Of a stretch of DNA of 64,000 bases, positions 9,392 through 43,573 are shown piece after piece. The stretch is taken from NCBI RefSeq assembly GCF_900112105.1, contig NZ_FOKV01000001.1:930001-994000 (forward strand), given 5' to 3'. The notes beneath the pieces are model-generated. The model saw only the letters and a list, made by a program, of their open reading frames with translations, searched no databases and was not told the DNA's origin. The stretch's first letter is position 1. The number at the start of each line of letters is the position of its first letter. Source of the DNA: Zunongwangia mangrovi. Its GTDB lineage: Bacteria > Bacteroidota > Bacteroidia > Flavobacteriales > Flavobacteriaceae. The translations under genes were made by a program, and so were the position numbers.

Positions 9392-11362
9392 TTATACCTG
9401 CTTGAAGATTATTAAAACTCCACCACCTTTAGCCAGATTTAGGTGGAGATTCGAAGTCCTATCTACACGAATTTTTTCAACCTCATAATCTTCTGCATAA
9501 TGATTTGCATTTAAACCATCCTTCAAGATTGTTGCTTCATAGTTAGCTCCATCAGTTAGAAAATCTAATTTAAGATCTAATTCATGTTCAGACCAATCTG
9601 TCATAGATCCTAAATACCAATTTTTACCATTGTTTCTTACTATGGTTAAGTATTCTCCAATCTTTGCTTCAATCACTTTAGTCTTATCCCAAACTGTAGG
9701 AATTTTAGAGATAACCTCTACCGTTTTTTTATCTTTTAAATAGGATGAGGGACTATCACAAAGCATTTGTAGGCCACTTTCATAAATTACATACATTGCT
9801 GCCTGATGTGCTCTTGTCCCCATACTCATTGGACGATCAAAAATAACAGCGTGATTTTTAAGTTGAGCATTTCTCATAGCTCCTGGCGTATAATCCATAG
9901 GACCTATGGCATTTCTGGTAAAAGGTAAAATTAAATTATGTGTAGGGGTAACATCATCAATCCATTTGTTATTTTCATTTCCGTGAACACCTTCATAACT
10001 AATAACATTAGGATAAGCTCTTCTAAGTCCAGAAGGCTTGTAAGCCCCATGAAAATCAACCAAAAGTTTACGCTTGGCGCATTCTTTTGCAATTTTCTCA
10101 TAGGAATTAACCATTTCCTGATCTGCTCTTTGCATAAAATCTGTTTTAATTCCTACAGCCCCCCAATCGGCATAGGTATCAAGAATTTGCTCCATATTAG
10201 CATCGAGTGGTTTCCACAGGCACCATAAAATTATTCCTACATTTTTCTTTTTACCGTAAGCTATAAGTTCCTTAACATTTATTTCCGGATTAAATTCTAA
10301 AATTTCAGTGGTAGATTTTGTCCAACCCTCATCAAGAATCACATATTCTAAACCATAATCAGCGGCAAAATCAATGTAATATTTATAGGTTTCTGTATTT
10401 AATCCAGCTTTAAAGTTTACATCGTATAAATTATTTGCATTATACCAATCCCATGCGATCTTACCTGGTTTAACCCAATCAATATTCTTTAACTCGGACG
10501 GTCTGGATAACAAATAAACAAGATCTTGTTCGATTAGATCTTTATCTCTAGCAGAGGCTATAAATACTCTCCAGGGCAAGCTGCGGGTTCCTTTTGTTTT
10601 AGCAATATATGGAAACTCCTCTGTTATTACAAGGTTTCGATCACCTGAACTACCCTCGACAGGTTCAGTTTTGGCTACAGCTTTAGGAAACTTTGCTTTT
10701 AAATTTCCATTTCCATCACTTTCTAAGAAAAGATTGGGGTAATCATACAAATCGGCTTCTGAAATTAAAATATTCATTTCATCTGCCTTAAATAGTATAG
10801 GCATTGCTCCAAATTTTCCTTTCTCCAAAGTGTCGATCGCGACCTGGGTAAATGTTTGTTCATAGTGAGAATAGGTTGATTTTTCATATGGGAAAAGGGA
10901 CGTTGTGGATTTTGGGAATTTTAAATCTAACTGTTCATTATCAATGGTAATGTCATTTTTAAATGTAGTGTTGAAGCGATACGCAAAACCCTCATTATAG
11001 ACTCTAAAACTCAAATAAAAATCTTGTTTGAAATAAAGATTAAGTTCGTTGAAATTCTCTATGATATTTTTTGACTTTAATGGAATAGGTACCTGAATAT
11101 TGTTGTGTACACTATTGTTTTTTGTTTTTTTAATTATAGGATTGCTCCCTAATGTATTACTATTCACATCAATCGAGATCGTTGCCTGGGGAAGTATGAG
11201 TTTTGTATTTTTATATACAGAAAAGGATATGTTTTCAGCTATATTTATTTTAACCTCTGTTTCCTTGTTAGGAGAACTAATTGAAAATTCTTGAGAAACA
11301 GATTTTAGCGATAGTAATAAAGCGATTAAAGCCAATGTGCATCGTATGTTTTGAAATCTCAT
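9392..11362 (-). CDS. GH97 glycoside hydrolase, probable retaining alpha-galactosidase
   Basis: 656 residues with a signal peptide (ALIALLLSLKSVSQ). An N-terminal beta-sandwich is followed by a (beta/alpha)8 barrel with family landmarks: KIAWDWYNAN, YVILDEGWTKS, WGAVGIKTDFMQRADQ and LLVDFHGAYKPSGLRR. The Asp in GIKTDFM sits where retaining GH97 alpha-galactosidases have their nucleophile, unlike inverting SusB-type alpha-glucosidases, so removal of alpha-1,6-galactose from galactomannan is the best fit. It acts in the periplasm or on the outer membrane. It lies 178 bases downstream of the GH2 gene on the same strand, probably one operon. GH27 at 31130 offers the same activity, one of several duplicated functions in this locus. 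Confidence 0.88.
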   Translation of the reverse strand: MRFQNIRCTLALIALLLSLKSVSQEFSISSPNKETEVKINIAENISFSVYKNTKLILPQATISIDVNSNTLGSNPIIKKTKNNSVHNNIQVPIPLKSKNIIENFNELNLYFKQDFYLSFRVYNEGFAYRFNTTFKNDITIDNEQLDLKFPKSTTSLFPYEKSTYSHYEQTFTQVAIDTLEKGKFGAMPILFKADEMNILISEADLYDYPNLFLESDGNGNLKAKFPKAVAKTEPVEGSSGDRNLVITEEFPYIAKTKGTRSLPWRVFIASARDKDLIEQDLVYLLSRPSELKNIDWVKPGKIAWDWYNANNLYDVNFKAGLNTETYKYYIDFAADYGLEYVILDEGWTKSTTEILEFNPEINVKELIAYGKKKNVGIILWCLWKPLDANMEQILDTYADWGAVGIKTDFMQRADQEMVNSYEKIAKECAKRKLLVDFHGAYKPSGLRRAYPNVISYEGVHGNENNKWIDDVTPTHNLILPFTRNAIGPMDYTPGAMRNAQLKNHAVIFDRPMSMGTRAHQAAMYVIYESGLQMLCDSPSSYLKDKKTVEVISKIPTVWDKTKVIEAKIGEYLTIVRNNGKNWYLGSMTDWSEHELDLKLDFLTDGANYEATILKDGLNANHYAEDYEVEKIRVDRTSNLHLNLAKGGGVLIIFKQV

Positions 11363-11540
11363 ATACTTAATATTTATTGTTGAAATTAATTTTTAAATGT
11401 CTCCCCTTTTTCTAATTCTGCCGAATATTTTTTGTTGCGATAATGAATAATTGTTTTTCCCATTAGTAAAAGTGATTTTAAATTCAGAAATATTATAATG
11501 ATATTCCGAAAGCAAAGGATGATTTCCTAGTATTACTTTT

Positions 11541-14342
11541 TTAGAAAAAATTTTCAAGTTCCGTGTTTGAAATACCAACCTTTGGATTGAAATTGTCGGA
11601 CTCCATATATTTAATGATTGAGTTATAAAGTTCAACTGCCTCTGGTTGATCAAAAATTTTGGAAAGTTGAGAGGTGCATATTAATAACTTTCCTTTGCCT
11701 ATTTTCAATTCGTATATCATCCCTAGTTTATGATTGCGTTCAAGATTATCAATTACCTGAACTATCGGTTTGAGCTCATGGGGTAGTTGATCAATAATCA
11801 TTGCACTGCTCGCTTTTATAATTGAAAACCATTGCCAGTTTGTATGATTATCGGTAGGGAATCTTTCAAAGATTGGATGTTGTGAATCTATTAATAGTCC
11901 CAGGGTTCCTGGTGATACTGGCTTATTTACATTTTCACTTATGGATTTAAACATTCCATAGTTCCAGAATTCAGGTGGGAAATGACCTGGAAAACTATTG
12001 TTTTTTATGTTTTCTGAATCTGGAAATAATAGCACTTTTCCACCGGCATTAAGTCGATCGAATAACTCATTATCTAAATTATGCTTGACTAAAACTTCTT
12101 TAGCAACGACTGGCGACTTAGGCTTATAAACCCATATTGGATAATCATTAGCGCTAAGAGAATTATTGAGTTCTAAATGTAAATTAAGCTTACCTGCATT
12201 TTCGGATAGGTTTAAATCTGCTCGAATAGTACCGATATAAGTATTGCCCCCCTGTGATGATTCTTTTGGTTGGAATTGGCCTTCTGCAATAGTGTCATTA
12301 CCTTTTGAAGTGATACTCCATTGTAAAGGTTCATTTATTGAGCTTTTGCCATAATTTGATACAATAATGTCTGCTTGAAATTTTTCATCGGTGGTCCAGC
12401 AATACTTAGAAAATTCAGCAAGAAGTGTGATGTCACTACAAGATTGTTTCCATTTTTCTTTTGAAATTACATTTTTACTATCCATAAATGCATCTAAAAC
12501 ACCTACCAATGCGGTACCTTGCCCAGGGAAATCCTGTAGATCCAACAACTGAAATCCTGCAAGGCTATCTGTTCTAAGAGCAGCTTCCATTTCTGCTTTA
12601 TAACAAAGTGCAGCCCATGCCCCTGAGGCTTTTTGGAAAATACTGTCCATTTCTGCCATGCCGGATTTCTCTAGATTTTTTTGAAATGATATCAAGTTCC
12701 ATGGTTTCAATACTCCGGTATATTTATGAATTTCTTCGTAGTCCGGATAAATTTGGTATTGTCCAATTTCATGGCTTATTACAGGAATTGAAAGTCTCAA
12801 TACAGCATCATCGAAGGTTCTGGTGGTTGAAGGATATTTTGTGTTCAGAATACCTCCCTCATGACTATCGGCATAAGCATGGGTTAAACGCGTATGTGTT
12901 TCTATACTATCACTTGCTGAAGGTGTTCTGGATCCAACGAAAAAATCTACATAATCTCCAGGCTTTAAATACCCAATATTATTATTGGAACCCATGGTAT
13001 AAAGAGGACGATTGTCATAAGCTTTAAGTTTTTTTATATACTCAGCAACCCGGTCATGACCACTCCAAATTTCATTTCCAGGAGAAAATAAAACAAAAGA
13101 AGGATGATTGCCGTATTCATCTAACATTGCTATACCTTCTTCGAATTGCATTTTTGCGATGGAATCGGAATCCATACCCCCCCAAAAAGGAAGCTCTACC
13201 TGAAGATAAATACCTAATTTGTCAGCTGCTTTGAAGGCTGCTTCTGGAGGACAATAAGTATGAAAACGGTAATGGTTAATGCCATATGATTTTGCAATTC
13301 CATAAATTCGTTTCCATTCTTCAGTAGTCATCGGAGGATAACCCGTAATAGGAAATACTGCCGCTTCGTGCTTCCCTCTTAGAAATGTGGTAAGACCATT
13401 GATAGTAAATTTTCTTCCCTTTGCTTGAAACTCACGCATTCCAAATTCTTCAATAATAGTACTTTTGATGCTATCCTTATATACGGTGGCCTCAAGTTCA
13501 TATAATGGTTGATCGAATTCATCCCAAAGTTTTATATCATTTTTAAATTCAAATGTTAATTGAATTTTGGATTGATCTTTAATCTTATATCGCTTTGAAG
13601 AAATTTCATCTCTCTGAGTTTTCCCTTTTTTATTCAACTTCAGAATGATGTCAAAATCTTTATAATCAGTATCATTGTTTATTTCTAAATCAACAGTAAT
13701 CCTTTTTGCCTGTATATCCGGATGTATTTTTATAGAATTAATTCTCAAATTATTAAAGGCTTCCAGGTGCATATCTCCTAGTATTCCATTCCAATTGGTT
13801 TGTGTATCATCAGAGTAGATGTGAACATTCCCATATGGTGTCAAATCTAAATCGTTATTCACCATAATAGTTATATAATGCTCCCCTGGGGCAGCATAGT
13901 TGGTAATATCAAATTTTTGAGGTGATTGCAAAAGATGGGATTTTCCAATGTATAAGCTGTCAATCCAAATTTTTGAGACCTTAGTTCTTTCCAGGAATAA
14001 TTCTACATGCTTGCCTTTAAAATTTGCAGGAATATTTATTTTTCTGCGATACCACGCAGCTCCTTCATATTTGTTAGGTCTGTTTAAGTGTAAAGTTGTT
14101 GTATCCTTATTGATTATTCCTTTTTTCCTTAGATCCGTTGTGCCAGGTAATTCAATCTTATCATTCAGCGTTTTCAAAAACCATTCTTTTTGAACTCCCA
14201 CTTGCGCAGTGTCTAAAGAAAATTGCCAATTTCCATTAAGTGGTAGAATATTAGAAGTATCTGGATTGTTCTCTCGTGTGCATCCGCTAAGAAAAATAGA
14301 TAAGAATAGTAACACAAAACAGTTACAGAAGATGGATTTCAT
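11541..14342 (-). CDS. GH2-family lipoprotein, candidate beta-mannosidase
   Basis: 933 residues. The lipobox is LSIFLSGC (Cys near residue 21). A sugar-binding jelly roll (about 35-200: NGNWQFSLD, GAAWYRRKINIP) and an Ig-like domain lead to the GH2 barrel, with RGKHEAAVFPITGYPPM, HYRFHTYCPPEAA, the acid/base Glu in SPGNEIWSG and the nucleophile Glu in VISHEIGQY. A long C-terminal extension of beta domains follows. Beta-galactosidase and beta-mannosidase share this fold; next to mannanases and a mannobiose route, exo-beta-mannosidase is favoured but not proven. It is the first gene of a leftward unit with GH97 and divergent from the first SusC gene. Confidence 0.85.
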   Translation of the reverse strand: MKSIFCNCFVLLFLSIFLSGCTRENNPDTSNILPLNGNWQFSLDTAQVGVQKEWFLKTLNDKIELPGTTDLRKKGIINKDTTTLHLNRPNKYEGAAWYRRKINIPANFKGKHVELFLERTKVSKIWIDSLYIGKSHLLQSPQKFDITNYAAPGEHYITIMVNNDLDLTPYGNVHIYSDDTQTNWNGILGDMHLEAFNNLRINSIKIHPDIQAKRITVDLEINNDTDYKDFDIILKLNKKGKTQRDEISSKRYKIKDQSKIQLTFEFKNDIKLWDEFDQPLYELEATVYKDSIKSTIIEEFGMREFQAKGRKFTINGLTTFLRGKHEAAVFPITGYPPMTTEEWKRIYGIAKSYGINHYRFHTYCPPEAAFKAADKLGIYLQVELPFWGGMDSDSIAKMQFEEGIAMLDEYGNHPSFVLFSPGNEIWSGHDRVAEYIKKLKAYDNRPLYTMGSNNNIGYLKPGDYVDFFVGSRTPSASDSIETHTRLTHAYADSHEGGILNTKYPSTTRTFDDAVLRLSIPVISHEIGQYQIYPDYEEIHKYTGVLKPWNLISFQKNLEKSGMAEMDSIFQKASGAWAALCYKAEMEAALRTDSLAGFQLLDLQDFPGQGTALVGVLDAFMDSKNVISKEKWKQSCSDITLLAEFSKYCWTTDEKFQADIIVSNYGKSSINEPLQWSITSKGNDTIAEGQFQPKESSQGGNTYIGTIRADLNLSENAGKLNLHLELNNSLSANDYPIWVYKPKSPVVAKEVLVKHNLDNELFDRLNAGGKVLLFPDSENIKNNSFPGHFPPEFWNYGMFKSISENVNKPVSPGTLGLLIDSQHPIFERFPTDNHTNWQWFSIIKASSAMIIDQLPHELKPIVQVIDNLERNHKLGMIYELKIGKGKLLICTSQLSKIFDQPEAVELYNSIIKYMESDNFNPKVGISNTELENFF

Positions 14343-14594: not shown

Positions 14595-17500
14595 ATGAAT
14601 CAAATAAGAGAAAGTTTGTATCTTTTTTTCTTGTTGCTCAGTTTCGGAGTATTTGGTCAAAAGACTATTACGGGAACCGTCACAGATGCCAATGGCATGC
14701 CTTTGCCAAGTGTTAATGTAATTCTGCAAGGAACAGATAACGGTGTTGTAACCGATTTTGACGGTAACTATCAAATTGAAGGGGTATATCCTGAGGATTA
14801 TCTGGTTTTCAGTTTTATCGGAATGGAGCAACAATCATTTTTAGTAGGGGAACAAACTACTATTGATGTAGTTCTTCAAGATGGAGCCAACAATTTAGAT
14901 GAGGTTGTACTTGTAGCCTATGGAACAGCCACCAAAAGAGATTTGACCGGAGCTGTAAGCACAATGTCTAGTGAAGATATGGAAACCTTTCCTGCTACCG
15001 ATGTAAATCAGGCTATTCAGGGTAAATTGTCTGGGGTTCAGGTAACCCAAAATTCGGGTAGCCCCGGCTCAGCAATGAGTATCAATATAAGAGGAGTTGC
15101 ATCATTTGGAAGTAATGATCCATTATATGTTGTTGATGGATTTCCAACTCAGGATATTTCCTTTTTAAACCCTAATGATATTGAAAGTATCTCTGTTTTA
15201 AAAGATGCATCTGCTGCTGCTATTTATGGGGTGCGCGCTAATGCTGGAGTTGTTATTATAAAAACTAAAAGTGGGGTTTCGGAAAAAGTAGTAGTCTCAT
15301 TAGATAATTTTGTAAGTATTCAAACGGTACCACAGCAAATTGACATGTTAGATGCCCCAACCTTTGCCAGGTTTGCTATGGAAACTGGTCAAGATCAGGG
15401 TGTGAACACTCTTGAGGAATGGAATAATCCGTCTAATTTAAGAACTGTAAACTGGCAGGATTATGCATTTGACACTGGTGTGAAAAATGTTCATAATATA
15501 AGTATTAGAGGAGGTAGCGATAGATCCAAAACTGCATTTAGCCTTGGAATGGTAAATGATGACGGTATTGTAGTTTCAGCAAAGTACAAGCGTTATAATA
15601 TTGGATTAAATACCGACTATAAAATAGCAGAAGGACTTAAGTTCAGAGGAAGTATTAAATATGCTTACGCTGAAACATATAATAATTTAGCGGCAGGTTT
15701 CTATGGTTTCGCCAGAATATTTGATAATGTTCCTTATTTGAATAATAGTGGTATAGCTGCACCATATGACGATAATGGAAACTATGGCGTTTTTACGGAT
15801 AGTCAGTTGATTTCAAGTAGTACTAATGTCATTGCAAATGCTTTATTATATGATAATGATAATAATAGCACTACTTTATTAACTAATATGGCTCTGGATT
15901 ATGAATTTCTGGACGGATTCAAAATTACAGGGAAATTTGGCTATCGTAATAATGGTTATAGCGGGAGTAGCTTCGTGCCTACCTATTTCCGTAGTGCGAA
16001 TGATCAAAATGCAAATGCTTCCTATTCCGTAAATCAGTCTAAAACCAATCAATATATAGGTGAGCTTTTACTAAATTACAAAAGAGTATTTGATAAGCAT
16101 AGTTTAGATATTCTTTTAGGTTCTTCAGCTCAAAAAGAGCTTTATGAAAATATTGCAACCACCGGGCAAGGATTTCTAAATAATAGCATACGTGACCTTT
16201 CATCAGCCAATGAAATAATTAATTATTCCGGAACTAATGGTACCGCAACCTTCGCAAGTACTTTTGCACGCTTAAATTATGTATTTGATCAAAAGTATTC
16301 CTTTACGGCTACTGTACGAAGAGATGGTGTTGGTAATAAATTTGCATCAGATAATTTATATGGAGTATTCCCTTCTGTGGCAGGTGCATGGAATTTAGAT
16401 CAGGAGAGCTTTATGGATAATTCCGTATTTGACTTATTAAAATTACGTGGTAGCTGGGGGGAAACTGGTAATAGTCAAGGTATTGAAGCTTTCCGGTATA
16501 TGGCTACCTATACTTCAGGGGCTACGCAGGAAAATTCAGGTTATGTTTTTGGCGGATCCCCCGTAACTGGATTGTCATTAGCGAGTCTTGCGAACCCGGA
16601 TTTAACCTGGGAATCTCAGATACAAACAAATATAGGTTTGGATTTTGAGCTTTTTGACTCAAAATTTTACGGAACAATTGATTATTTTAATAAGTCAGCT
16701 AAAGATTTCTTACTGGATCAGACAATTCCAGCTCAAAACGGATTTACGACAATGGCCGTTAATGCCGGAAATGTTGAAAATAAAGGTATTGAAGTTCTTT
16801 TGGGCTATCGTAAGTCCGAGGGAGATTTTACCTGGGATCTGTCAGGAAACATAAGTGTTATAGAAAATGAGATAACAGATTTAGGTAATCAGGAGTTTGT
16901 AACGTACCCTTCAAATTTTACACCAAGCTTTAATACCAGTTGGTCAGGGTTTACCCGATCCTATGTGGGAGGAAATGTAGGAGCATTTTATGGATATCGG
17001 GCAAATGGGATATTTCAATCTCAAGAAGAGATAGATCAGCTTAATGCTGGAGCACCTGATGGAGAATATCAACCTGCATATGGTTTAAATCCCATCGCAC
17101 CCGGAGACCGAAGATTTGAAGATATCAATGGGGATGGAGAAATCACTGCTGAGGACAGAGAGATTATCGGAAGTCCTATTCCGGATTTATATGGAGGCTT
17201 AAATTTTAATGCAGCCTATAAAAATTTTGATTTTCAATTGGCAATATATGGAAGCTATGGAAATGATATTTTAAATTTTATCAAAAGTCAGAATGAAAGT
17301 CTGGGAGCCTACGGATATAATTCTGTATATACGAATGTTAGCCAGGAATACTATAATAATCGTTGGACACCAACGAATCCATCTAATACTTATGCCAGGG
17401 CAGTTATTGAGGATACTAACCGAAACGGAAGAATATCAGATTATTTTGTTGAAGACGGTTCGTTCTTAAAGCTAAGAAACATTAAACTGGGATATAACTT

Positions 17501-17717
17501 ACCGCTATCTATTTTAGAACGCTTCAGTGCTTCTCGTGCTAATTTATATATCAGTGGACAAAACCTTATAACGCTGACCAGTTATAGTGGCCTGGATCCT
17601 GAGATAGGAACAGCAACAGATATAGATGGAAACGGAGGTGTGCAAACAAGAGGGATCGATTTTGGGTCATATCCTAATTCTCCAACAATAACTCTTGGGT
17701 TAAACTTACAATTCTAA
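14595..17717 (+). CDS. SusC/RagA-type TonB-linked outer-membrane transporter (pair 1)
   Basis: 1040 residues. After a signal peptide (LYLFFLLLSFGVFGQ) comes a carboxypeptidase-like regulatory domain (KTITGTVTDANGMPLPSVNV...GTDNGVVTDFDGNYQI), then the plug (DEVVLVAYGTATKRDLTGAVS, LYVVDGFP, SVLKDASAAAIYGVRANAGVVII) and the SusC barrel ending in the expected aromatic residue (GLNLQF). It forms the TonB-driven import pore for oligosaccharides capped by the SusD protein encoded 10 bases downstream. The substrate here is inferred as manno-oligosaccharides. Together with the SusD gene it ends at a strong hairpin (19311-19340), so it seems to be a separate unit from pair 2. Confidence 0.95.
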   Translation: MNQIRESLYLFFLLLSFGVFGQKTITGTVTDANGMPLPSVNVILQGTDNGVVTDFDGNYQIEGVYPEDYLVFSFIGMEQQSFLVGEQTTIDVVLQDGANNLDEVVLVAYGTATKRDLTGAVSTMSSEDMETFPATDVNQAIQGKLSGVQVTQNSGSPGSAMSINIRGVASFGSNDPLYVVDGFPTQDISFLNPNDIESISVLKDASAAAIYGVRANAGVVIIKTKSGVSEKVVVSLDNFVSIQTVPQQIDMLDAPTFARFAMETGQDQGVNTLEEWNNPSNLRTVNWQDYAFDTGVKNVHNISIRGGSDRSKTAFSLGMVNDDGIVVSAKYKRYNIGLNTDYKIAEGLKFRGSIKYAYAETYNNLAAGFYGFARIFDNVPYLNNSGIAAPYDDNGNYGVFTDSQLISSSTNVIANALLYDNDNNSTTLLTNMALDYEFLDGFKITGKFGYRNNGYSGSSFVPTYFRSANDQNANASYSVNQSKTNQYIGELLLNYKRVFDKHSLDILLGSSAQKELYENIATTGQGFLNNSIRDLSSANEIINYSGTNGTATFASTFARLNYVFDQKYSFTATVRRDGVGNKFASDNLYGVFPSVAGAWNLDQESFMDNSVFDLLKLRGSWGETGNSQGIEAFRYMATYTSGATQENSGYVFGGSPVTGLSLASLANPDLTWESQIQTNIGLDFELFDSKFYGTIDYFNKSAKDFLLDQTIPAQNGFTTMAVNAGNVENKGIEVLLGYRKSEGDFTWDLSGNISVIENEITDLGNQEFVTYPSNFTPSFNTSWSGFTRSYVGGNVGAFYGYRANGIFQSQEEIDQLNAGAPDGEYQPAYGLNPIAPGDRRFEDINGDGEITAEDREIIGSPIPDLYGGLNFNAAYKNFDFQLAIYGSYGNDILNFIKSQNESLGAYGYNSVYTNVSQEYYNNRWTPTNPSNTYARAVIEDTNRNGRISDYFVEDGSFLKLRNIKLGYNLPLSILERFSASRANLYISGQNLITLTSYSGLDPEIGTATDIDGNGGVQTRGIDFGSYPNSPTITLGLNLQF

Positions 17718-22777: not shown

Positions 22778-22787
22778 TAATGAGAAT

Positions 22788-34501: not shown

Positions 34502-35608
34502 ATGAAGGATTTTGTCAAAGTAGTGATAATATTTAGTATGCTTTCTTTGTCTTGTAGTCTTTCACGTCCTATAAAAGTAATGGAGGGAAAGAAATATAAA
34601 TCGAATAGTACATTACAGAAGCGTTTAGTAAATATAGCGGATACCGGATTCGCTTTTGGCCAGCAGGATGGTACTGCTTATGGTGTCAATTGGTACTTAA
34701 ATGATGGATCGAATACTTTAAATAGCGATATAAAGAAGGTCTCAGGAGAATTACCTGCTATGATAGGATTTGATCTAGGTCATCTTGAGCATGGGGGGAT
34801 ATATAATTTAGACACGGTTTCATTTGCTTTAATAAAACAGCAAACCATCGAAGTAGATCAACTCGGAGGTATTATTAGTTTTAGCTGGCATGCAGATAAT
34901 CCTGTAAGTCAGGGTAGCTCGTGGGATACCACACCTGCAGTTCATAAAATTTTATATGATAAGAAAATAAATGCAAAATTCAACCTATGGATAGAGCGTC
35001 TTAGCAGGTTTTTTAAATCTCTTAAAGATGAAAATAACCAAAGTATTTCGGTTATTTTCAGACCTTTCCATGAGATGAATGGTTCCTGGTTCTGGTGGGG
35101 TAGAGGAAATTGTACTAACGAAGATTATGTGAAGTTGTGGCAATATACCATAGAGCGATTAAGACAGCATGGAGTTAATAATATTCTTACTTCTTTTTCT
35201 CCAAATACAATGAATGATATAAAGGATTTTGAAGACTTCTATCCGGGAGATGATTATGTTGATGTTTTAGGAGTCGATATCTATAACCATAATGGGAATC
35301 AAAATTTTATAAAATCTGTAGAGGATAATTTATCAATATTAAGAGCCAAGGGGGAAAAATCCAATAAACCTTTTGCATTAACAGAAACTGGGAATGTAAA
35401 TATGGGAAAGGATTCACGCTGGTGGACCGAAATTTTATATCCAGTATTGGAAGATAGTGGGATTTCATGGGTTCTGGTATGGAGAAACGCAAGAAAAGAT
35501 CACTATTTTGCTACTTTCCCTAATGAAAATTCTTCCGAAGATTTTAAAACTTTTGTGAATAAATCGCAAGTATTAATGCTTCCTGATCTCCGATCCAAAA
35601 AATTATAA
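34502..35608 (+). CDS. GH26 endo-beta-1,4-mannanase lipoprotein
   Basis: 368 residues with lipobox SMLSLSCS (Cys18). The GH26 barrel shows GGIISFSWHADNP, the acid/base Glu191 in VIFRPFHEMNGSWFWWG, LGVDIYNHNG and the nucleophile Glu in FALTETGN. The lipid anchor and architecture resemble ManA-type mannanases that release mannobiose. It is the first gene of an operon running through the symporter, GH130, epimerase and GH5_7 gene; the stop codon is one base from the symporter start. Distinct from the unanchored GH26 at 25951, so the two enzymes likely differ in location and product. Confidence 0.95.
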   Translation: MKDFVKVVIIFSMLSLSCSLSRPIKVMEGKKYKSNSTLQKRLVNIADTGFAFGQQDGTAYGVNWYLNDGSNTLNSDIKKVSGELPAMIGFDLGHLEHGGIYNLDTVSFALIKQQTIEVDQLGGIISFSWHADNPVSQGSSWDTTPAVHKILYDKKINAKFNLWIERLSRFFKSLKDENNQSISVIFRPFHEMNGSWFWWGRGNCTNEDYVKLWQYTIERLRQHGVNNILTSFSPNTMNDIKDFEDFYPGDDYVDVLGVDIYNHNGNQNFIKSVEDNLSILRAKGEKSNKPFALTETGNVNMGKDSRWWTEILYPVLEDSGISWVLVWRNARKDHYFATFPNENSSEDFKTFVNKSQVLMLPDLRSKKL

Positions 35609-35609
35609 A

Positions 35610-37457
35610 ATGTTACAAACTATTGATATCCTTATAATTTTGGCCTATTTAGTAGGAACTATTCTAATAGGTTTAGCTCTAAGAAAAAGGGCTCAAAAAA
35701 GTAAGGATGATTATTTAATGGGAGGTAAAAGTCTTCCATGGTATATGTTGGGGCTATCAAATGCTTCTGGGATGTTCGATATCTCTGGAACTATGTGGCT
35801 TGTTACTTTGACTTTTGTATATGGTTTCAAAAGTATATGGATCCCGTGGTTGTGGCCAGTATTCAATCAGGTTTTTTTAATGGTTTATCTTTCAATGTGG
35901 TTAAGAAGGTCTAATGTAACAACTGGAGCCGAATGGATATTATTTCGGTTTGACAATGGAAAAGGAGGAAGAAGGTCGCATACTATAATCGTAATCTTCG
36001 CTATTTTAAGTTGCCTTGGTTTTCTTGCCTATGGATTTATTGGTTTAGGAAAGTTTGTAGAGATTTTTATTCCCTGGGAAGTAGTTTCGGTATATATTCC
36101 ATTCGATATTCCAGTTGCATATATTCCTCACTTCTATGGTATAATATTTACACTTTTTGCAGTTTTTTATTCTGTTTTAGGAGGTATGTCGGGTATAGTT
36201 TGGACCGATGTATTACAATATGGTATAATGACTATTTCTTCCATTGCTATTGCAGTTATTGCCTGGCAAGCATATGGAACAAATACAATGGATGTTCCTG
36301 AAGGTTGGATGAATCCCTTTTTTAACTGGGAGTTACATATGGATTGGTCTAATATTATAGCTGAAGTAAATACAAAAATAGAAGAAGATGGCTATACCAT
36401 GTTTGGGATATTTTTTATGCTTATGGTCTTTAAAGGGATACTCTCAAGTATTGCCGGGCCAGCTCCAAATTACGATATGCAAAAAATTCTGTCTACTAAA
36501 TCTCCTCTTGAAGCAGCAAAAATGAGTGCTTTTTCTTTAGGAGCCCTAATTCCAACCAGGTATTTGATGGTTGGGGGATTTTCAGTATTAGCTCTGTTAT
36601 TCTACGATAAACTAGATTTAAAAACTGCGGGAGTTTTGGATTTTGAAAAAATACTTCCTGCTGCAATAGAGCAATTTGTGCCTGTAGGTTTATTGGGTCT
36701 TTTATTAGCAGGCTTACTAGCTGCTTTCATGTCCACTTTTGCCGGAACACTAAATGCAGCTCAGGCATATTTGGTAAACGATATTTATCTAAAACATTAT
36801 GAGCCTGATGCCTCTTCGAAGACAATAAAAAAAATGAATTATGGAAGTGGGATTGTAGTGGTTGTAATAAGTATAATACTTGGTTTTTTTGTCCAGGATG
36901 TCAACTCCATCCTTCAATGGATTGTATCTGCATTATTTGGTAGTTATGTGATTTCCAATGTTCTTAAATGGCATTGGTGGAGGTTTAATGGCGAAGGCTA
37001 TTTTTGGGGAATGCTTTCAGGGATTATTCCAGCTTTAATTTTTCCTGTTTTTCTTGATACATTAGATCTATATTATTTCCCCGTAATTTTATTGATTTCG
37101 CTCGCAGGAAGTATTATTGGAACGTATAGTGCACCCCCTACAAACGAGCAAGTTTTACAAAAATTTTATAAAAAGACTAAACCTTGGGGATTTTGGTCGC
37201 CAATTGCAAAAAAGCTAAGTATTGAACAACATGCTTTCGAGGAAAATAAAAATTTTAAATGGGATATGTTTAATGTTGTTCTTGGTACACTGGCACAAAC
37301 ACTTTTAGTGGTTATCCCTTTATATATAATTCTGAGGGAAACTTCATTACTTATGATTACAACAGGTGTCCTAATCATATCAGTAGTTATTCTCAAATTT
37401 TCTTGGTGGGACAGAATAAAAAAAGAAGATATTAAATATCGCTCTGATAATGAATAA
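35610..37457 (+). CDS. Sodium:solute symporter (SSS family), probable mannobiose importer
   Basis: 615 residues with about 14 hydrophobic helices, starting with TIDILIILAYLVGTILIGLALRKR. SSS features include DDYLMGGKSLPWYMLGLSNASGMFDISGT, which holds the first sodium-site helix, and LLLAGLLAAFMSTFAGTLNAAQAYLVNDIY, the family signature region. It imports a sugar with Na+ across the inner membrane. Placed between the GH26 mannanase and GH130, it is the natural mannobiose carrier of this route, as in Bacteroides fragilis-type mannan loci. Substrate inferred from context; family firm. Confidence 0.92.
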   Translation: MLQTIDILIILAYLVGTILIGLALRKRAQKSKDDYLMGGKSLPWYMLGLSNASGMFDISGTMWLVTLTFVYGFKSIWIPWLWPVFNQVFLMVYLSMWLRRSNVTTGAEWILFRFDNGKGGRRSHTIIVIFAILSCLGFLAYGFIGLGKFVEIFIPWEVVSVYIPFDIPVAYIPHFYGIIFTLFAVFYSVLGGMSGIVWTDVLQYGIMTISSIAIAVIAWQAYGTNTMDVPEGWMNPFFNWELHMDWSNIIAEVNTKIEEDGYTMFGIFFMLMVFKGILSSIAGPAPNYDMQKILSTKSPLEAAKMSAFSLGALIPTRYLMVGGFSVLALLFYDKLDLKTAGVLDFEKILPAAIEQFVPVGLLGLLLAGLLAAFMSTFAGTLNAAQAYLVNDIYLKHYEPDASSKTIKKMNYGSGIVVVVISIILGFFVQDVNSILQWIVSALFGSYVISNVLKWHWWRFNGEGYFWGMLSGIIPALIFPVFLDTLDLYYFPVILLISLAGSIIGTYSAPPTNEQVLQKFYKKTKPWGFWSPIAKKLSIEQHAFEENKNFKWDMFNVVLGTLAQTLLVVIPLYIILRETSLLMITTGVLIISVVILKFSWWDRIKKEDIKYRSDNE

Positions 37458-37483: not shown

Positions 37484-38653
37484 ATGAAAACGATCCCCAA
37501 TTTTGAAAAGTTGATCGAAAGTCATGTTAGCCTCATAAAAAAGCAGAATAAAGCATTAGAATATTCTAATGGTATTTATCAGAGATATAAAAATCCTGTA
37601 GTCACTGGTGAGCATGCGCCTATAGAATGGAGGTTTGACTTAAACCCTGAAACAAATCCAAAAGGCTTGGAGAGAATAGGTATTAATGCTGCCTTCAATC
37701 CTGGGGCAATTAAATGGAATGAAAGCTATGTTTTAGCAGTAAGAGTAGAGGGGAACGATAGAAAATCTTTTTTTGCTATCGCCGAGAGCCCTAACGGAAT
37801 TGATCAATTCGAGTTTTGGAAAAAACCAATTGAACTCCCTGCATACGGTGAGCCTGATACAAATGTTTATGATATGCGCTTAACCAAGCATCAGGATGGT
37901 TGGATTTACGGTATTTTTTGTACGGAGAGAAAAGATAAATCTCGTATTGATGATACAACGGCAGCTATAGCTAATGCGGGTATCGTTAGAACAAAAGATC
38001 TGATGAACTGGGAGCGTCTGCCGGACTTAATATCGGATTCTGGACAGCAAAGAAATGTAGTAATGCACCCAGAATTTGTTAATGGGAAATATGCCTTATA
38101 TACTCGACCTCAAGATGGTTTTATTGAAGTTGGAAAAGGCGGAGGTATTGGTCTGGGGTATATTTCAGATATTACTAATCCAGTTTTAGAAGATGAAGGT
38201 ATAATTAATCAAAAAGTATATCATACCATTTATGAAATGAAAAATGGTCTTGGACCTGCTCCCATTAAAACCAAAGAGGGTTGGCTACATCTCGCTCACG
38301 GGGTAAGAAATACTGCAGGAGGCTTAAGGTATACACTTTATATGTTTATGACATCTTTGGAAGATATTTCAAAAGTTATCTATCAGCCCGCGGGTTATTT
38401 CATGGCACCCAACTATAAGGAAACTGTCGGAGATGTTCCAAATGTATTATTTGCTAATGGATGGATAAAAGATGAAGATAATACCGTTTATATATATTAT
38501 GCCTCTTCAGATACTAGATCTCATGTAGCTACAAGCACTGTAGATAAGCTTGTAGACTATGTAAAAAACACACCCCAGGACCAATATACTTCAGCAGCAT
38601 CTGTAAAGTCTATTATAGATTTGATAAATAGAAATTCCGTTTATGATCTCTAA
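37484..38653 (+). CDS. GH130 4-O-beta-D-mannosyl-D-glucose phosphorylase
   Basis: 389 residues, no signal peptide, so cytosolic. GH130 subfamily 1 traits: RIGINAAFNPGAIKW, AVRVEGNDRKSFFA, the proton donor Asp130 in PDTNVYDMRLTKH, and phosphate-site residues in the HPEFVNGKYALYTRPQDG segment. It should split mannosyl-1,4-glucose with phosphate into mannose-1-phosphate and glucose. The last 11 bases overlap the AGE epimerase start, coupling the two steps of the pathway. Mannobiose phosphorylase (subfamily 2) is the alternative, but the length and the partner epimerase favour the mannosyl-glucose enzyme. Confidence 0.92.
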   Translation: MKTIPNFEKLIESHVSLIKKQNKALEYSNGIYQRYKNPVVTGEHAPIEWRFDLNPETNPKGLERIGINAAFNPGAIKWNESYVLAVRVEGNDRKSFFAIAESPNGIDQFEFWKKPIELPAYGEPDTNVYDMRLTKHQDGWIYGIFCTERKDKSRIDDTTAAIANAGIVRTKDLMNWERLPDLISDSGQQRNVVMHPEFVNGKYALYTRPQDGFIEVGKGGGIGLGYISDITNPVLEDEGIINQKVYHTIYEMKNGLGPAPIKTKEGWLHLAHGVRNTAGGLRYTLYMFMTSLEDISKVIYQPAGYFMAPNYKETVGDVPNVLFANGWIKDEDNTVYIYYASSDTRSHVATSTVDKLVDYVKNTPQDQYTSAASVKSIIDLINRNSVYDL

Positions 38654-39827
38654 TAAAGAAACTCTAAAAAAAGAATTTCGAATAGAACTTCTAAATATTG
38701 TTTCTTATTGGAAATCTAATAGTCTGGATGAGGTCAATGGAGGTTTTATAGGAGCCAGAGATCATGATAACAATATTAGAATAAATCAGGATAAAGGGAT
38801 TATTCTCAATACAAGACTGTTATGGACATTTTCATTTGTAGAAAATTTTGATAGTTCATTTTCTTGCAAAGCAGAGGCGGATAGAGCTTACCAGTATTTG
38901 AAAGCAAATTTTAAGGATGATCGTTATGGTGGAGTTTTTTGGAGCTTAAATTTTAAAGGAGAGGTAACCAATTCCAGAAAACAAATCTATGCACAAGCTT
39001 TTTTGATCTATGCTTTATCAGAATACTATAAACTCACAGGTGATCAAAATGTACTTAATTGGGCACTTGAGGTTTTTGATTTGATAGAAGATAGGGCTAA
39101 GGACCTAAATAACGGAGGATACTTTGAAGCATTTAGAAATGACTGGGATACTATTGAGGATATGCGATTGAGTGAAAAGGATCTCAATGCTTCAAAAACA
39201 ATGAATACTCATTTGCATTTGTTAGAAGCTTATACATCATTATATGCTGTATCAGGAAACTTTAAAGTTAAGAATGCATTAGATAACTTGATTCATTTAC
39301 ATTTAGAAAAATTCCTAAATTCAAGTACTAAACATTTTTATCTATTTTTTGATGATCACTGGAATAACCAAACGGATATTATTTCATATGGACATGATAT
39401 TGAGGCCGCATGGTTATTAATAGAAGCAGCTCACATTGTGGAAGATAAAAGTTTGCTTCAGAAAGTGGAATCTTTGGCAATACAAATAAGTGATATCTTT
39501 TTAAAAGAAGCCTACGTAAAGTCATTTGGTATTATAAATGAAAAAAAGGAGGGGGTTGTTGATGAAGATCGTCATTGGTGGCCTCAGGTAGAAGCAATGC
39601 TTGGACTTGCCTTTGTTTCCAAAATAGAAGCTAAACAATCATACCATGATGCTTTAATAGATATTTGGGATTTTGTAAAAACTTATATTATTGATAAGAG
39701 ATATGGAGAATGGTTTTTTAGAATTAATAAAGAAGGTAAACCTTATGAATCTGAAAATAAAATTGGTATGTGGAAGTGTCCATATCATAACTCGCGGGCT
39801 CTGGTTAAACTAATTCAGATGTTATAA
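38643..39827 (+). CDS. Cytosolic AGE-family epimerase, probable mannobiose 2-epimerase
   Basis: 394 residues, no leader. The (alpha/alpha)6 barrel shows conserved His residues in MNTHLHLLEAY, SYGHDIEAAWLL and CPYHNSRAL and the WWPQVEAM segment. The expected reaction turns beta-1,4-mannobiose into mannosyl-1,4-glucose, which the overlapping GH130 gene product then phosphorolyses. Symporter, phosphorylase and epimerase in a row match the known Bacteroides mannan catabolic module. It is leaderless, in contrast to the AGE protein at 29570. Confidence 0.92.
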   Translation: MISNKETLKKEFRIELLNIVSYWKSNSLDEVNGGFIGARDHDNNIRINQDKGIILNTRLLWTFSFVENFDSSFSCKAEADRAYQYLKANFKDDRYGGVFWSLNFKGEVTNSRKQIYAQAFLIYALSEYYKLTGDQNVLNWALEVFDLIEDRAKDLNNGGYFEAFRNDWDTIEDMRLSEKDLNASKTMNTHLHLLEAYTSLYAVSGNFKVKNALDNLIHLHLEKFLNSSTKHFYLFFDDHWNNQTDIISYGHDIEAAWLLIEAAHIVEDKSLLQKVESLAIQISDIFLKEAYVKSFGIINEKKEGVVDEDRHWWPQVEAMLGLAFVSKIEAKQSYHDALIDIWDFVKTYIIDKRYGEWFFRINKEGKPYESENKIGMWKCPYHNSRALVKLIQML

Positions 39828-39835: not shown

Positions 39836-41107
39836 ATGAAGAAAGCATTTATATTAATTTTGATAGGTACTTTATTTTCTTGTAATGGAGTTAAGCGTAT
39901 CAGTATTGTAGACGGTCATTTTAAAAAAGGAAATGAACCATATTACTATATAGGTGCAAATTACTGGTACGGACCTATAATAGCATCAGAAAAGTTAGGA
40001 AATAGAACCCGATTGATAAAAGAACTCGATCTAATGGATAGCCTTGGGATCGATAATTTGAGAATATTAGTTGGTGCAGAGGGAGGTAAAGAAGATTTTC
40101 AGGTGAAGCCTGCGCTTCAATATGAACAAGGGAAATATAATGAGGATCTTCTGGATGGTTTAGATTTTTTGCTAAATGAAATGCGCAAAAGAAAAATGTA
40201 TGCTGTATTATATTTAAACAATAATTGAATCTGGTCCGGCGGTATGTCCACCTATTTGAATTGGAATGGATATGGGAAGGTTCCGAATCCTTTTTTAGAG
40301 AAATATACCTGGGAAGAATATATGAATTATACAGAGCAATTCCACACATGTCAGCCATGCTTGGATTCATTTTATAAGCATATAGCATTTATATTGGGAA
40401 GAAAAAATAATTATAATGGCGAAAAATATTCTAGTGATAAAACGATAATGTCCTGGCAGGTAGCGAATGAACCCAGAATTTTTTCAGAATCCGACAAAGT
40501 TCCATTCAAATCATTTTTAGATAAAACAGTTAGAGTGTTAGATTCATTAGCACCAAAAATTTTAATTTCTACAGGAGCCGAAGGCAAAGCGAGTTATTTG
40601 CAGAATATTGATACGTATAAAGTATTACATGTAAACCCTAACATAGATTATTTAACGGCTCATATGTGGCCTAAAAATTGGGGATGGTATAAGGTATCTG
40701 ATGAAACAAAATCATTAAATGAATCAATTTCGAATGCAAGATCATATATAAAAGAGCATATTGATGTAGCAAAAGAATTAAATAAACCCATCGTGATTTC
40801 TGAATTTGGTTTCCCTAGAAACTCTGAAAGTCTTAAACTTAAATCAAATACAGGTTACCGTGATGAATTTTACGAATCAATTTTTCAACAGCTTTTAGAA
40901 AGTGCTCAGTCGGATGGTTTAATGGGCGAAGTAAATTTTTGGGGATTTGCAGGATATGCAAAGCAATCAAATAATCCTGAAAAGTGGAGAGAAGGAGATG
41001 ATTTCACTGCAGACCCTCCACAAGAACCCCAAGGCTTAAATTCAGTTTATGCTGGAGATAAAACTACTATTCAACTAATTGAAAAATATAATAGTAATTT
41101 AAATTAA
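39836..41107 (+). pseudogene. GH5_7-type endo-beta-mannanase interrupted by in-frame TGA
   Basis: The two halves (39836-40228 and 40229-41107) are in one frame, separated only by TGA at 40226-40228, giving 423 codons if read through. The signal is lipoprotein-like (LILIGTLFSCNG). The stop falls in LNNN-stop-IWSGGM, where GH5_7 mannanases usually have Trp (NxWxWSGGM pattern), so a single TGG to TGA change explains it. Beyond the stop the frame stays intact to the end with acid/base Glu212 in WQVANEP and nucleophile Glu323 in VISEFGF. It is the last gene of the GH26 operon. Fresh nonsense mutation, sequencing error or, less likely, readthrough; the 130-residue product alone could not be active. 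Confidence 0.85.
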
Positions 41108-41108: not shown

Positions 41109-42497
41109 TTATTTAGATTCTTCTATTTTTTCCAAAAATCCAGAAGCTGGCAGATTTTCTTCATTCATTAAGTTTGGTTCGGCGTCATTTTTCCATGCAT
41201 ATCTAACCCATAAGGGATTATTAACTTTATTAGAACTAAGTATAACCTTCGTGTTCTTTATAACTGCTTCAGCAGGATAAAAAATACTATCTTGTCCGGC
41301 AACTTCGAATAATGATTGATTATTTATAAAATGTAGTTCTTTAGCATGGGAGAACTCGACAATTAAACTATCACTTTTTGAATATGATTGTGTAAAAAGT
41401 GGCCCATAATATTCTTTATCTATTTTATTATAGTGTAGGTTCAATGCTAGATTAGCAAACCTTTCTCCTACGGGTTTCTTATTTCTTGGATGGATATCTT
41501 TTGGGTTTCCTACATCACCGGTAAAAACCATTCCAGTATTCGAAATATTTAGTGATTTTCGCTGAGCCTCTCTAACTATTACCCCGTTAAAATTATCTTG
41601 CCCATAATCATAGGGCGCTATTTGAGCATAATAAAATGGAAAATTAGTATTAAAAACTTCTCTCCAGGAATTAATTAATTCCTTAAATGTATTTTGATAA
41701 TATTCTGCATTTGAGGTATTACTTTCTCCCTGGTACCAAACTACACCTGCTATCTTATAATTTGTAATAGGATGAATCATAGCATTAAATGCATAAGCAG
41801 GCTCATTAGGCCCCCATGGTTCCTTGGGTAATTTAGCAACAGCCTTTTGAAGAATGGAGTCTTTCTCAAATTTATTTTTCGGAATCCATATTTCTGCAGG
41901 TGTTCCACCCCAGTACGAACCGATTATTCCTATAGGTATGTCTCCCAAATCTTTTGAAAGTTTGTTAGCAAAAAAATAAGCAATTGCACTAAACTCTTGC
42001 ATCGTTTCGGGACTATTAATCCTCCAATTAGCAGTTAATTCCTGCTGTGGAAATTTGGAAGAACGTTTTGGAATTTGAAAAAATCTTATTTTTTTATTCG
42101 TAGCATTTTCAATTGCTTCCTCACCCTTAGTAATACCAGCAGCATTCCATTCCATATTTGACTGTCCAGAAGCCAACCAGACCTCTCCAAATAATATATT
42201 TTCGACCTTTATGTGATTATAACCATACAAGTCTAATCGCTGCGGATTTTTATTATCATTAGTTTTAATTTCAACGCTCCAATTTGAATGTCGATCTACT
42301 TTGGTAGAAATTGTATCATTTTTATTCCAGGACGCAACGATATTAATTTTCTCTCCTGGATTTCCCCAGCCCCAAATCTTAATTTTACTATTTCTTTGTA
42401 AAACCATATTATCTGAAAATATGGAGGGCAGTTCAATATTGCCAAAGGAATCCATACTCACTAAGCCTATTAGTAAGAGAATTAAAATTTTTTTCAT
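41109..42497 (-). CDS. Sialate O-acetylesterase-like (SASA/SGNH) acetylesterase
   Basis: 462 residues with a signal peptide (ILILLLIGLVSMDSFG). An N-terminal beta domain (LPSIFSDNMVLQRNSKIKIWG) precedes the SGNH fold: WLASGQSNMEW holds the catalytic Ser, IIGSYWGGTPAEIW the oxyanion Gly, VVWYQGESN the Asn block and DIHPRNK the Asp-His pair. Related plant-wall loci use such enzymes to remove acetyl groups from xylan or mannan. Next to mannanases, deacetylation of glucomannan is likely. The start overlaps the end of the upstream CE2-like gene by 4 bases, and the stop is one base from the convergent mannanase gene. Confidence 0.87.
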   Translation of the reverse strand: MKKILILLLIGLVSMDSFGNIELPSIFSDNMVLQRNSKIKIWGWGNPGEKINIVASWNKNDTISTKVDRHSNWSVEIKTNDNKNPQRLDLYGYNHIKVENILFGEVWLASGQSNMEWNAAGITKGEEAIENATNKKIRFFQIPKRSSKFPQQELTANWRINSPETMQEFSAIAYFFANKLSKDLGDIPIGIIGSYWGGTPAEIWIPKNKFEKDSILQKAVAKLPKEPWGPNEPAYAFNAMIHPITNYKIAGVVWYQGESNTSNAEYYQNTFKELINSWREVFNTNFPFYYAQIAPYDYGQDNFNGVIVREAQRKSLNISNTGMVFTGDVGNPKDIHPRNKKPVGERFANLALNLHYNKIDKEYYGPLFTQSYSKSDSLIVEFSHAKELHFINNQSLFEVAGQDSIFYPAEAVIKNTKVILSSNKVNNPLWVRYAWKNDAEPNLMNEENLPASGFLEKIEESK

Positions 42498-43573
42498 GAT
42501 TTAGAACTTAGAATATTTTTAAAAAATGGAACTAATTGTTGAGCAAGGATCTTATGATCTTGTGATGAAGGATGGTAGTCACAACCCTCGGGTGTCATAA
42601 GTTTAAATTCAAAAATTTCAATGGATAGTTCATCATTAAGTTTTGATTTAATAGAACGTAACGATTCCAGTAATTTCTTACCTTCTTTGGATTCGGGATC
42701 TACCATTGGGCTTGTCAAAAGTGTAAACTTAGCCTGCGGGTATATTTTATGAAGATGGTTTAAAAATTTGATGTAGTTACGCTCAAACTTTTTATGATTA
42801 AATTCAGATCTTTCTTTGATTCCATCTCCTTTGGATAAATCATTAGTACCTAATGCTACACTTATGATATCTGGTGAATGTTCCGGTTTTGCTCTTCTTT
42901 CTCCGTCATCACTTAAATTTTTAAAATCATATACATCTGGCATTACAGGTTGATCTTCATCATTCCAGTTTCGATACATGCCCATCCCAGATACACAACT
43001 TAATTCGAAATCTACATCCAAAATTCTCGCTATTCTTGGCCCATATGCTAAATAAGAATTGTGTTGATCAAACCAGTTTTCAGATCCGCAGTCTATTGAA
43101 TCCATATCCGCTCCCATGCCACACGTTATAGAATTCCCTATGAATTCAATTTTCTTTCGTGTTTTAGGAATTGCTTTTGAGATTTTTTCAGCTTTTACAC
43201 CATTAAAAAAAATATCTCCTGTAGATGCTTCGGTTGCTTTATAAACTTTTATGTCGTTTAAAGAATCTTTCAGACCAATTTGGATTGGAGAATTTTTAAT
43301 ATTAAATCGACCAACATACTTACTATTCAATTCTAAACTAATATAATCACTTTGGTTAACACCACTGAAAAAGAGTTGACAGCTATCGCCTTCAACAGCA
43401 AAGTGTACATTAGAGGCTGAACCAATTAATGTAATAGTAGAATCGCTTAGTTTCTCAATACGTCCTTTATATTGAAAATTGCTAGAACTTGCAGGATAAT
43501 ATTTGTCTTTATTGGTTTTATTACATGAGGCTAGAGAAATTAAAACCAATGAAAATAGTACAAATTTATGCAT
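42494..43573 (-). CDS. CE2-like SGNH acetylesterase lipoprotein
   Basis: 359 residues with lipobox LVLISLASCNK. It has the two-part CE2 build: a beta-sandwich (about 30-130, FQYKGRIEKLSDSTITLIGSA) and an SGNH hydrolase domain with IEFIGNSITCGMGAD (Ser), VALGTNDLS (block III Asn) and CDYHPSSQDHKILA (His). Acetyl groups of mannan or xylan are typical substrates. First gene of a leftward pair with the SASA-type esterase, with a 4-base overlap. Two esterases with different folds suggest handling of O-2, O-3 and O-6 acetyls, as in acetylated glucomannan. Confidence 0.88.
   Translation of the reverse strand: MHKFVLFSLVLISLASCNKTNKDKYYPASSSNFQYKGRIEKLSDSTITLIGSASNVHFAVEGDSCQLFFSGVNQSDYISLELNSKYVGRFNIKNSPIQIGLKDSLNDIKVYKATEASTGDIFFNGVKAEKISKAIPKTRKKIEFIGNSITCGMGADMDSIDCGSENWFDQHNSYLAYGPRIARILDVDFELSCVSGMGMYRNWNDEDQPVMPDVYDFKNLSDDGERRAKPEHSPDIISVALGTNDLSKGDGIKERSEFNHKKFERNYIKFLNHLHKIYPQAKFTLLTSPMVDPESKEGKKLLESLRSIKSKLNDELSIEIFEFKLMTPEGCDYHPSSQDHKILAQQLVPFFKNILSSKS

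Follow-up and report, generated by a model that had tools for sequence, protein, structure and literature searches.

A beta-mannan locus of apparently layered origin, probably loaded at a fic gene within a tRNA-Asp mobilizable element of Zunongwangia mangrovi

A 64-kb stretch of the Zunongwangia mangrovi genome (hereafter the window; positions 930001–994000 of contig 25 in a 4.13-Mb draft of 32 contigs) contains a polysaccharide utilization locus (PUL) for beta-mannan, situated inside a mobilizable element at a tRNA-Asp gene. We consider it probable that this locus is layered: an import segment was swapped, a second module was acquired and split, and the product was loaded at the fic gene of the mobilizable element. 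Comparison with related genomes brings out the module content, the discordant trees, the attachment (att) sites and a fic site that is unoccupied in the sister species. All coordinates refer to the window. Genomes are designated by G-numbers, with G000 being the window genome and G001 the sister species. Family searches covered 397 genomes drawn from a larger group; those for SusC, GH2 and GH9 scored at most the two best candidates per genome, among the matches listed.

We infer the direction and order of the transfers as follows. A core of an AraC-family regulator, a sodium:solute symporter (SSS) and GH130, together with GH26b, AGE2, GH5_7 and esterases, would form one layer, in which AraC-SSS-GH130 tracks the species tree. 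This core carries an import operon, SusC2-SusD2-SGBP-GH27-GH5a (SGBP, surface glycan-binding protein), whose GH27-GH5a portion is sister to that of a group of another genus (G121, G200 and G367). The SusCD2-SGBP segment would then have been replaced in place by a divergent version of higher G+C content in G000 and G001. A second module, SusCD1 and the triad GH26a-GH9-AGE1 (with GH2), nearest to G121, G200 and G367, would have been added and then split, leaving SusCD1-GH2-GH97 on the left, with the triad ending up between SGBP and GH27. Once complete, the locus lies between a fic gene and a tyrosine recombinase gene (int_M); from such a fic-cargo-int_M frame it would finally have entered the fic gene of the integrated element and duplicated the fic 3' end, by homologous recombination or by int_M.

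The left part of the locus comprises GH97 (9392–11362) and GH2 (11541–14342) on the minus strand, and SusC1 (14595–17717) and SusD1 (17728–19263) on the plus strand. The middle part starts on the plus strand with SusC2 (19613–22777), SusD2 (22764–24329) and a TIG-domain protein (24342–25376) whose presumed role as SGBP follows from its position after SusD2. These are followed by GH26a (25951–26949) and GH9 with a CelD_N domain (26963–29434) on the minus strand, and by the AGE-family epimerase AGE1 (29570–30907), a GH27-type alpha-galactosidase (31130–32353) and GH5a (32358–33353) on the plus strand. The right part consists of AraC (33423–34298, minus strand), GH26b (34502–35608), SSS (35610–37457), GH130 (37484–38653), AGE2 (38643–39827) and an interrupted GH5_7-type mannosidase gene (39836–41107), all on the plus strand, and of a SASA esterase (41109–42497) and a CE2-type acetyl esterase (42494–43573) on the minus strand. 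Pfam and NCBIfam support two SusC, two SusD, two GH26 and two AGE-type epimerases, as well as GH97, GH27, GH2, GH9, GH130, SSS, AraC and both esterases. A SusCD pair, GH26 and GH130 are thus found in one locus, the combination that defines a beta-mannan PUL of the Flavobacteriaceae type. The doubling of SusC/SusD, GH26, AGE and GH5 that a first-pass annotation of this DNA had described is borne out, for the second GH5 by way of a homologue in G002. The same annotation called the two susC genes clearly diverged, and their products are indeed only 34% identical.

The different parts of the locus have different phylogenies. In an rpoB tree of 28 genomes, the genus is held together (support 100), next to G115 and far from G121, G200 and G367. 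A concatenated AraC, SSS and GH130 tree (24 rows, from loci in which all three were found) agrees with rpoB in grouping the four congeners that have the locus (support 99). The tree of SusC2, SusD2 and SGBP (22 rows, the G264 and G181 loci having been removed beforehand for a duplicated or remote SGBP) places G002 and G005 with G121 and G367 (support 100), and G000 and G001 far away. Forcing a genus clade on SusCD2-SGBP costs 454 log units (approximately unbiased (AU) test, p 1e-64), while forcing G002 and G005 to join G121 and G367 on the core costs 684 log units (AU p 5e-62). Pairwise identities follow the same lines: SusC2 of G002 is 72% identical to that of G121 and 55% to that of the window (for G002 and G005 together, 72–73% to G121 against 55% to the window), whereas SSS of G002 is 85% identical to the window and 68% to G121. 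The genus forms one clade in the GH27 and GH5a tree (13 rows), sister to G121, G200 and G367 (support 100), and the window joins the same trio in the triad tree (8 rows, support 100).

The core together with SusC2 is present in four of the six genus genomes (G000, G001, G002 and G005). In G004, GH130 occurs at two further loci, whose SusCD pairs are different ones, and the search of G003 with GH26a gave no match, which leaves that genome, whose GH130 was not searched, outside the locus comparisons. G001 is about 95% identical to the window in most locus proteins (94% for GH2, 95% for SusC2). Its locus runs from GH2 through a SusC1 fragment (residues 1–238), SusC2, SusD2, SGBP, GH27, GH5a, AraC, GH26b, SSS, GH130, AGE2, a broken GH5_7 and SASA to CE2; it is without SusD1 and the triad, and only the start of GH97 is kept. 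The loci of G002 and G005 span SusC2 through SASA, and neither SusCD1 (above 38%), GH2, GH97 (above 27%), the triad nor CE2 was found in them. The left part therefore looks like the more recent or volatile one, being absent from G002 and G005 and decayed in G001. Between G000 and G001, the AraC-GH26b stretch (33.3–35.6 kb) is 66–81% identical inside surroundings of 89–100%, which probably reflects local exchange.

Beyond the genus, SusC2 is matched at E 1e-280 or better in 23 of the 397 genomes. In the 24 loci formed by these genomes and G002, GH130 always lies in the same fetched stretch as SusC2, AraC does so in 23 and GH27 in 19. Of the 23 loci with AraC, 12 have SusC2 in the same orientation and only 0.3–1.3 kb away from it. 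The operon is reversed in this genus, such that GH5a adjoins AraC. The junction at 33.4 kb is common to G000, G001, G002 and G005, and was rejected as an insertion edge for that reason.

SusC1 has a narrower distribution. Relatives at 79–80% identity occur in only three of the 396 other genomes (G121, G200 and G367), among the matches listed. SusC1 directly adjoins AGE1, GH9 and GH26a in G121 and G200, where the locus also contains the core, GH27-GH5a, esterases and GH2. The left and middle blocks of the first-pass annotation thus each hold half of one SusCD1-triad module. In G367, the triad is inside the mannan locus and SusCD1 on another contig. At E 1e-280 or better, SusC1 is matched in seven other genomes: it occurs with the core in G121, G200 and G293 and apart from it, in the stretch compared, in G367, G041 and G252, the G024 locus not having been fetched. 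GH2 is 57–62% identical in G200, G121, G266, G034 and G045.

The triad also behaves as a unit of its own. GH9 was matched in 17 other genomes, of which 14 were fetched (G117, G158 and G035, below 50% identity, were not). AGE1 adjoins GH9 in eight of the 14, GH26a is present too in seven of these eight and the GH130 core in six; in the fetched stretches of the other six genomes, GH9 is without GH26a and AGE1. The triad, or GH9-AGE1, accompanies the core without a close SusCD1 in G148, G115 and G396, and lies apart from the core in G054 and G179. None of the eight places GH9-AGE1 between SGBP and GH27.

The composition of the locus is not flat, as the first-pass annotation had noted by eye and the G+C content at third codon positions (GC3) confirms. 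GC3 is 0.265 in the left part, 0.349 in the middle and 0.251 in the right, against a background of 0.302 (SD 0.041; 285 genes of this genome). The ranges of the eight middle genes (0.320–0.372) and the 12 flanking genes (0.217–0.283) are disjoint. The middle exceeds the left and right flanks by 0.084 and 0.099, so that it differs from both, while the largest excess in the same direction is 0.011 in a background control (58 overlapping placements in two 40-kb stretches) and 0.032 in a scaled control (90 placements in 20-kb stretches). Among 27 loci, the middle-minus-right difference is +0.087 in G000 and +0.068 in G001, and ranges from −0.069 to +0.013 in the other 25, where the middle part of G200 and of two named loci amounts to one or two genes only; the two named loci, from Salinimicrobium and Muricauda, were used out of 80 found by GH27, the other 78 not being compared. 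A G+C step that is simply a property of the gene families was ruled out, since it occurs in two of 27 loci only. For the same reason, composition does speak soundly for a separate history of the middle segment in this lineage, and the view that the locus is composite, with a middle of other composition and history than the right part, stands.

The whole locus lies within an outer element at a tRNA-Asp(GTC) gene (933–1007, plus strand). The last 22 bases of the gene (986–1007, the attL core) are repeated exactly at 44692–44713 (plus strand, attR), and in G002–G005 the sequence following tRNA-Asp matches the window after 44713 (alignments of 61–75 bases at 94–100%, starting at the att core). The repeat and the displaced tRNA-adjacent sequence delimit an element of 43,706 bases that contains the entire mannan locus. 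Next to the tRNA gene is a tyrosine recombinase (int; 1108–2475, plus strand) with Phage_integrase and Arm-DNA-bind_5 domains, which has a 93% homologue beside tRNA-Asp in G001. The backbone (2644–7702, minus strand) comprises a NERD protein, a relaxase (PF03432; 3700–4569), a NikA-like mobilization protein (PF21983; 4566–5087), a primase-like protein (5062–5955), a DUF5906/VapE-like protein (6158–7369) and an HTH_17 excisionase-like protein (7424–7702). The element thus has the features of an integrative mobilizable element (IME), namely an integrase beside a tRNA gene, flanking att repeats, and a relaxase and mobilization gene without a full conjugation set. The relaxase is found three times in the window genome at 97–100% (the other copies at C25:501882–502748 and C17:38150–39016), which suggests past movement and makes the mobilizable backbone multi-copy; the outer element may still be moving. 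The relaxase and mobilization genes (3700–5087) have GC3 values of 0.44–0.45, at the top of the 285 background genes, and the backbone, too, appears to be foreign. In G002 an att-like sequence recurs 26.5 kb on, differing at one position, so the tRNA-Asp site may be used there too. Outside the window, 37 kb further along the contig (C25:1031651–1031711), a stretch matches the attR surroundings at 85%; it takes in the 3' end of a tRNA-Leu gene together with the sequence after it, and is probably not an att copy.

Within this element, the mannan locus is found at a fic gene (DUF4172-Fic; 8130–9239, plus strand). A direct repeat of 303 bp has its left copy in the 3' end of this gene (8918–9220) and its right copy in an orphan fic 3' end at 44289–44590 (plus strand). 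The copies are 90% identical and flank 35,068 bases. In G001 there is an unoccupied fic gene, in which sequence corresponding to 6263–9220 (96%) runs straight into that of 44289–44756 (94%), attR included. The inner part of the repeat in this gene is slightly closer to the left copy (98/97%) than to the right copy (95/95%), whereas over the last 60 columns the right copy is nearer (98%, against 90% for the left) and the flank agrees with the right copy alone. This pattern is predicted by insertion within the fic 3' end. Just before the right copy, the window has a relic of int_M (43661–43981, minus strand), the C-terminal 107 residues of a second tyrosine recombinase with a stop. A remnant resembling the C-terminus of an IS3-type transposase (44053–44259, plus strand) was recognized there by eye; no search matched it. 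The putative int_M site at fic takes the form of an imperfect repeat of 303 bp, not of a short and exact core.

A similar frame occurs in other members of the genus. The mannan locus of G001 lies elsewhere in its genome, between a fic 5' fragment and an intact int_M (408 aa, beside CE2). G005 has the same frame, with 7.4 kb of left flank at 98.8% (L241 1–7441) and 1.5 kb around int_M at 96.5%. It holds fic and 12 kb of cargo, in which a C39-like ABC transporter and a protein of radical-SAM-like type were read from translations (L241 and L245). The DNA identity of the frame between G001 and G005 exceeds the protein identity of AraC, SSS and GH130 (81–86%), so the frame itself may have moved between both species recently. 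In G004 (L237), a fic gene about 21 kb from tRNA-Asp is accompanied by cargo that includes a C39 ABC transporter and an HlyD protein, by an int_M relic and by an orphan fic 3' end, after which comes an att copy differing at one position. Beside int_M, neither G005 nor C4 of G001 showed such an orphan fic 3' end. The cargo in G004 and G005 resembles peptide export cassettes. The three genomes indicate one frame with different cargo by species. As a tentative proposal, nearly as likely as not, the fic-cargo-int_M frame may be a cargo-exchange site in the genus, at which whole PULs and C39-ABC/radical-SAM export cassettes replace one another, between the frame outside tRNA-Asp (G001 and G005) and the tRNA-Asp mobilizable element (G000 and G004; unoccupied in G001).

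Other histories of the locus must be considered. The first-pass annotation regarded the middle part, from susCD2 to GH5 (19.6–33.4 kb), as one block inserted between the halves of an older mannan locus. The sharp GC3 steps at both block edges, seen in two of 27 loci only, and the discordance of the SusCD2-SGBP tree with the core tree agree with this idea, as do G200, where SusCD1 and the core occur without SusCD2, and G293, where a SusCD1 relative lies beside the core without SusCD2 or GH27. We nevertheless find it unlikely, since the block is not one unit: the triad is missing from G001, G002 and G005, and in the eight other loci with GH9-AGE1 it is never placed between SGBP and GH27, the 33.4-kb junction is shared by four congeners, and in G002 and G005 a SusCD2-type operon and the core exist without any left part. 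The triad rather appears to be a separate module and SusCD2-SGBP a replacement, so a single inserted block and the proposed order of events are not upheld; the annotation also overlooked that the entire locus is carried as cargo by a nested mobile element. The idea of an older locus formed by the left and right parts retains remote support from G293 and G200; however, in every one of the 24 loci that have SusC2 the right part accompanies the SusCD2 module, and at a SusC1 identity of at least 70%, no joined left and right parts lacking the block were found in 34 other loci (G121 and G200 both have GH27-GH5a). An even less probable alternative is one large ancestral locus, inherited vertically and altered by losses and shuffling without transfer between genera. 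G121, which has nearly the whole gene set in one locus in a different order, is compatible with this. It is contradicted by SusC1, which is 78–79% identical to G121 and G200 while AraC, SSS and GH130 are at 67–72%, by the closeness of SusC2 of G002 and G005 to G121 rather than to the window, and by the AU test, which rejects a genus clade for SusCD2-SGBP. That the tRNA-Asp and fic arrangement is due to chance or to the assembly, the PUL being an ordinary chromosomal one, is very improbable. Although the genome is a draft in 32 contigs, the window and both junctions lie inside one contig of 1.42 Mb, the att repeat is exact, the tRNA-adjacent sequence of relatives is displaced to the far end, and the fic site is unoccupied in G001 and holds other cargo in G004.

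The layered history that we prefer also has observations weighing against it. With six genomes of the genus available, few taxa underlie the order of events; tree searches were short ('quick'), the groupings in the AU tests were named after the trees were seen, and the GH27 and GH5a tree omits G115, G148 and G396, where no GH5a was found. In the modules concerned, GC3 is low (0.16–0.29) in the presumed donors G121, G200 and G367, which therefore do not explain the high G+C content of the middle part. A source of the high-G+C SusCD2 was not found, as no SusC2 relative above 56% exists outside G001 (50–56%) among the matches listed. G200 has SusCD1, the triad, the core and GH27-GH5a and lacks SusCD2-SGBP. 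In G293, the SusCD1 relative immediately adjoins AraC-GH26b-GH130-AGE2; the 40 kb compared contain neither SusC2 nor GH27, and the joined locus has no GH2 or GH97. A SusCD1-plus-core locus without the middle does exist, at a distance (55% identity) as remote as that of most SusC2 relatives counted. Differential loss could account for the absences of SusCD1 and the triad. As for the element, the tRNA-Asp element of G001 is on two contig ends (C55 and C23) joined by sequence match only, and beyond attR its agreement with the window ends at 44756. No coupling or transfer gene is present among the window proteins scanned, a set without small open reading frames such as that of 100 aa at 3385–3687, and movement would consequently need a helper.

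The families present point to a possible pathway. Surface and periplasmic enzymes would cut and debranch mannan, and the two SusCD pairs would import the products. SSS would take in disaccharides, AGE2 would convert mannobiose to mannosylglucose and GH130, which is of the mannosylglucose phosphorylase type (3was, 548 bits), would phosphorolyse the latter. The nearest solved relative of GH26a is the GH26A enzyme 6q75 (479 bits), and GH26b resembles endo-mannanases (4zxo and Cellvibrio Man26C). AGE2 matches cellobiose 2-epimerases with 302 bits and, judged by eye, lacks a signal peptide; the match of AGE1 is more distant (147 bits), and an apparent signal peptide, also judged by eye, makes it look secreted. 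The G002 homologue of GH5a (76%) matches the cellulases 4hty and 8bn7. GH97 is a putative alpha-galactosidase, as which the first-pass annotation listed it; its family includes alpha-glucosidases too. The second GH5, which we take to be GH5_7 following the label given in the first-pass annotation, has no Pfam match even when its in-frame TGA (40226–40228) is read through, and neither does its intact G002 homologue, which matches solved GH5 mannosidases (1uuq, 347 bits). G001 has a frameshift in this gene in contrast to the in-frame stop in the window, and G002 and G005 have intact copies of 427 residues. The differing lesions represent parallel loss or sequencing errors in the drafts. GH27, GH5a, GH9 and the two esterases fit acetylated galactoglucomannan as the predicted target; a galactoglucomannan was also deduced as the target of a Muricauda PUL (PMC9860051).

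Related systems share many of these components. The Bacteroides fragilis mannan operon with mannosylglucose phosphorylase, reported by Senoura in 2011, is said to have a core of GH26, GH130, epimerase and symporter, likewise present in the window; we know of no SusCD2 module, triad or mobile element in it. The MAR_2010_75 PUL (PMC9860051) resembles the window locus in GH26A- and GH26C-type enzymes, GH27, GH5_26, GH130, CE2, a symporter, an epimerase and AraC. What sets the window apart is its GH9, GH2 and GH97, an additional, apparently secreted AGE-family protein, and a second SusCD whose origin is different. GH97 belongs to the carbohydrate-active enzymes that often accompany GH26 clusters (PMC9860051). 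The same paper describes significant PUL rearrangements between strains, with the same modularity in 27 of 101 clusters; the word 'horizontal' is absent from it, and no mobile element was noticed in the portion available to us. Among North Sea beta-mannan PULs (PMC6298971), that of Muricauda likewise has two SusC/D pairs, which might target different oligosaccharides. PULs for mannose-rich substrates are described there as having little common gene arrangement, and the available part gives no account of module origin or a mobile carrier. In gut Bacteroidetes, 47 PULs with SusC and SusD are on mobile elements (PMC6907783), PULs are exchanged through recombination between common flanking genes (PMC8845570), and porphyran, agarose and carrageenan traits are carried by integrative and conjugative elements or mobilizable plasmids (cited in PMC8845570). 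Unlike these, the window PUL sits in the fic gene of a tRNA-Asp mobilizable element, in a frame whose cargo differs in sister species. Mannan loci are already known, as are rearrangements of them and the carriage of such loci by mobile elements; the nesting at fic appears to be new. In open-licence literature, among the entries listed and at the level of titles and the starts of abstracts, we found no account of this locus, of a PUL at fic, or of a Flavobacteriaceae mannan PUL on an IME, an absence that is weak evidence.

Accounts of PUL evolution often speak of entire loci being gained or lost. Here, a single locus appears to have changed at three scales, through exchange of an import module, addition and subsequent splitting of a second module, and a final loading of the assembled locus onto a mobile element. 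Together with the unoccupied site in the sister species, this makes the route of PUL transfer in these bacteria testable. A block delimited by eye or from composition need not correspond to a unit of transfer. If the fic-cargo-int_M frame is indeed an exchange site, it would give these bacteria a general way to mobilize complete polysaccharide loci put together from the modules of several genera.

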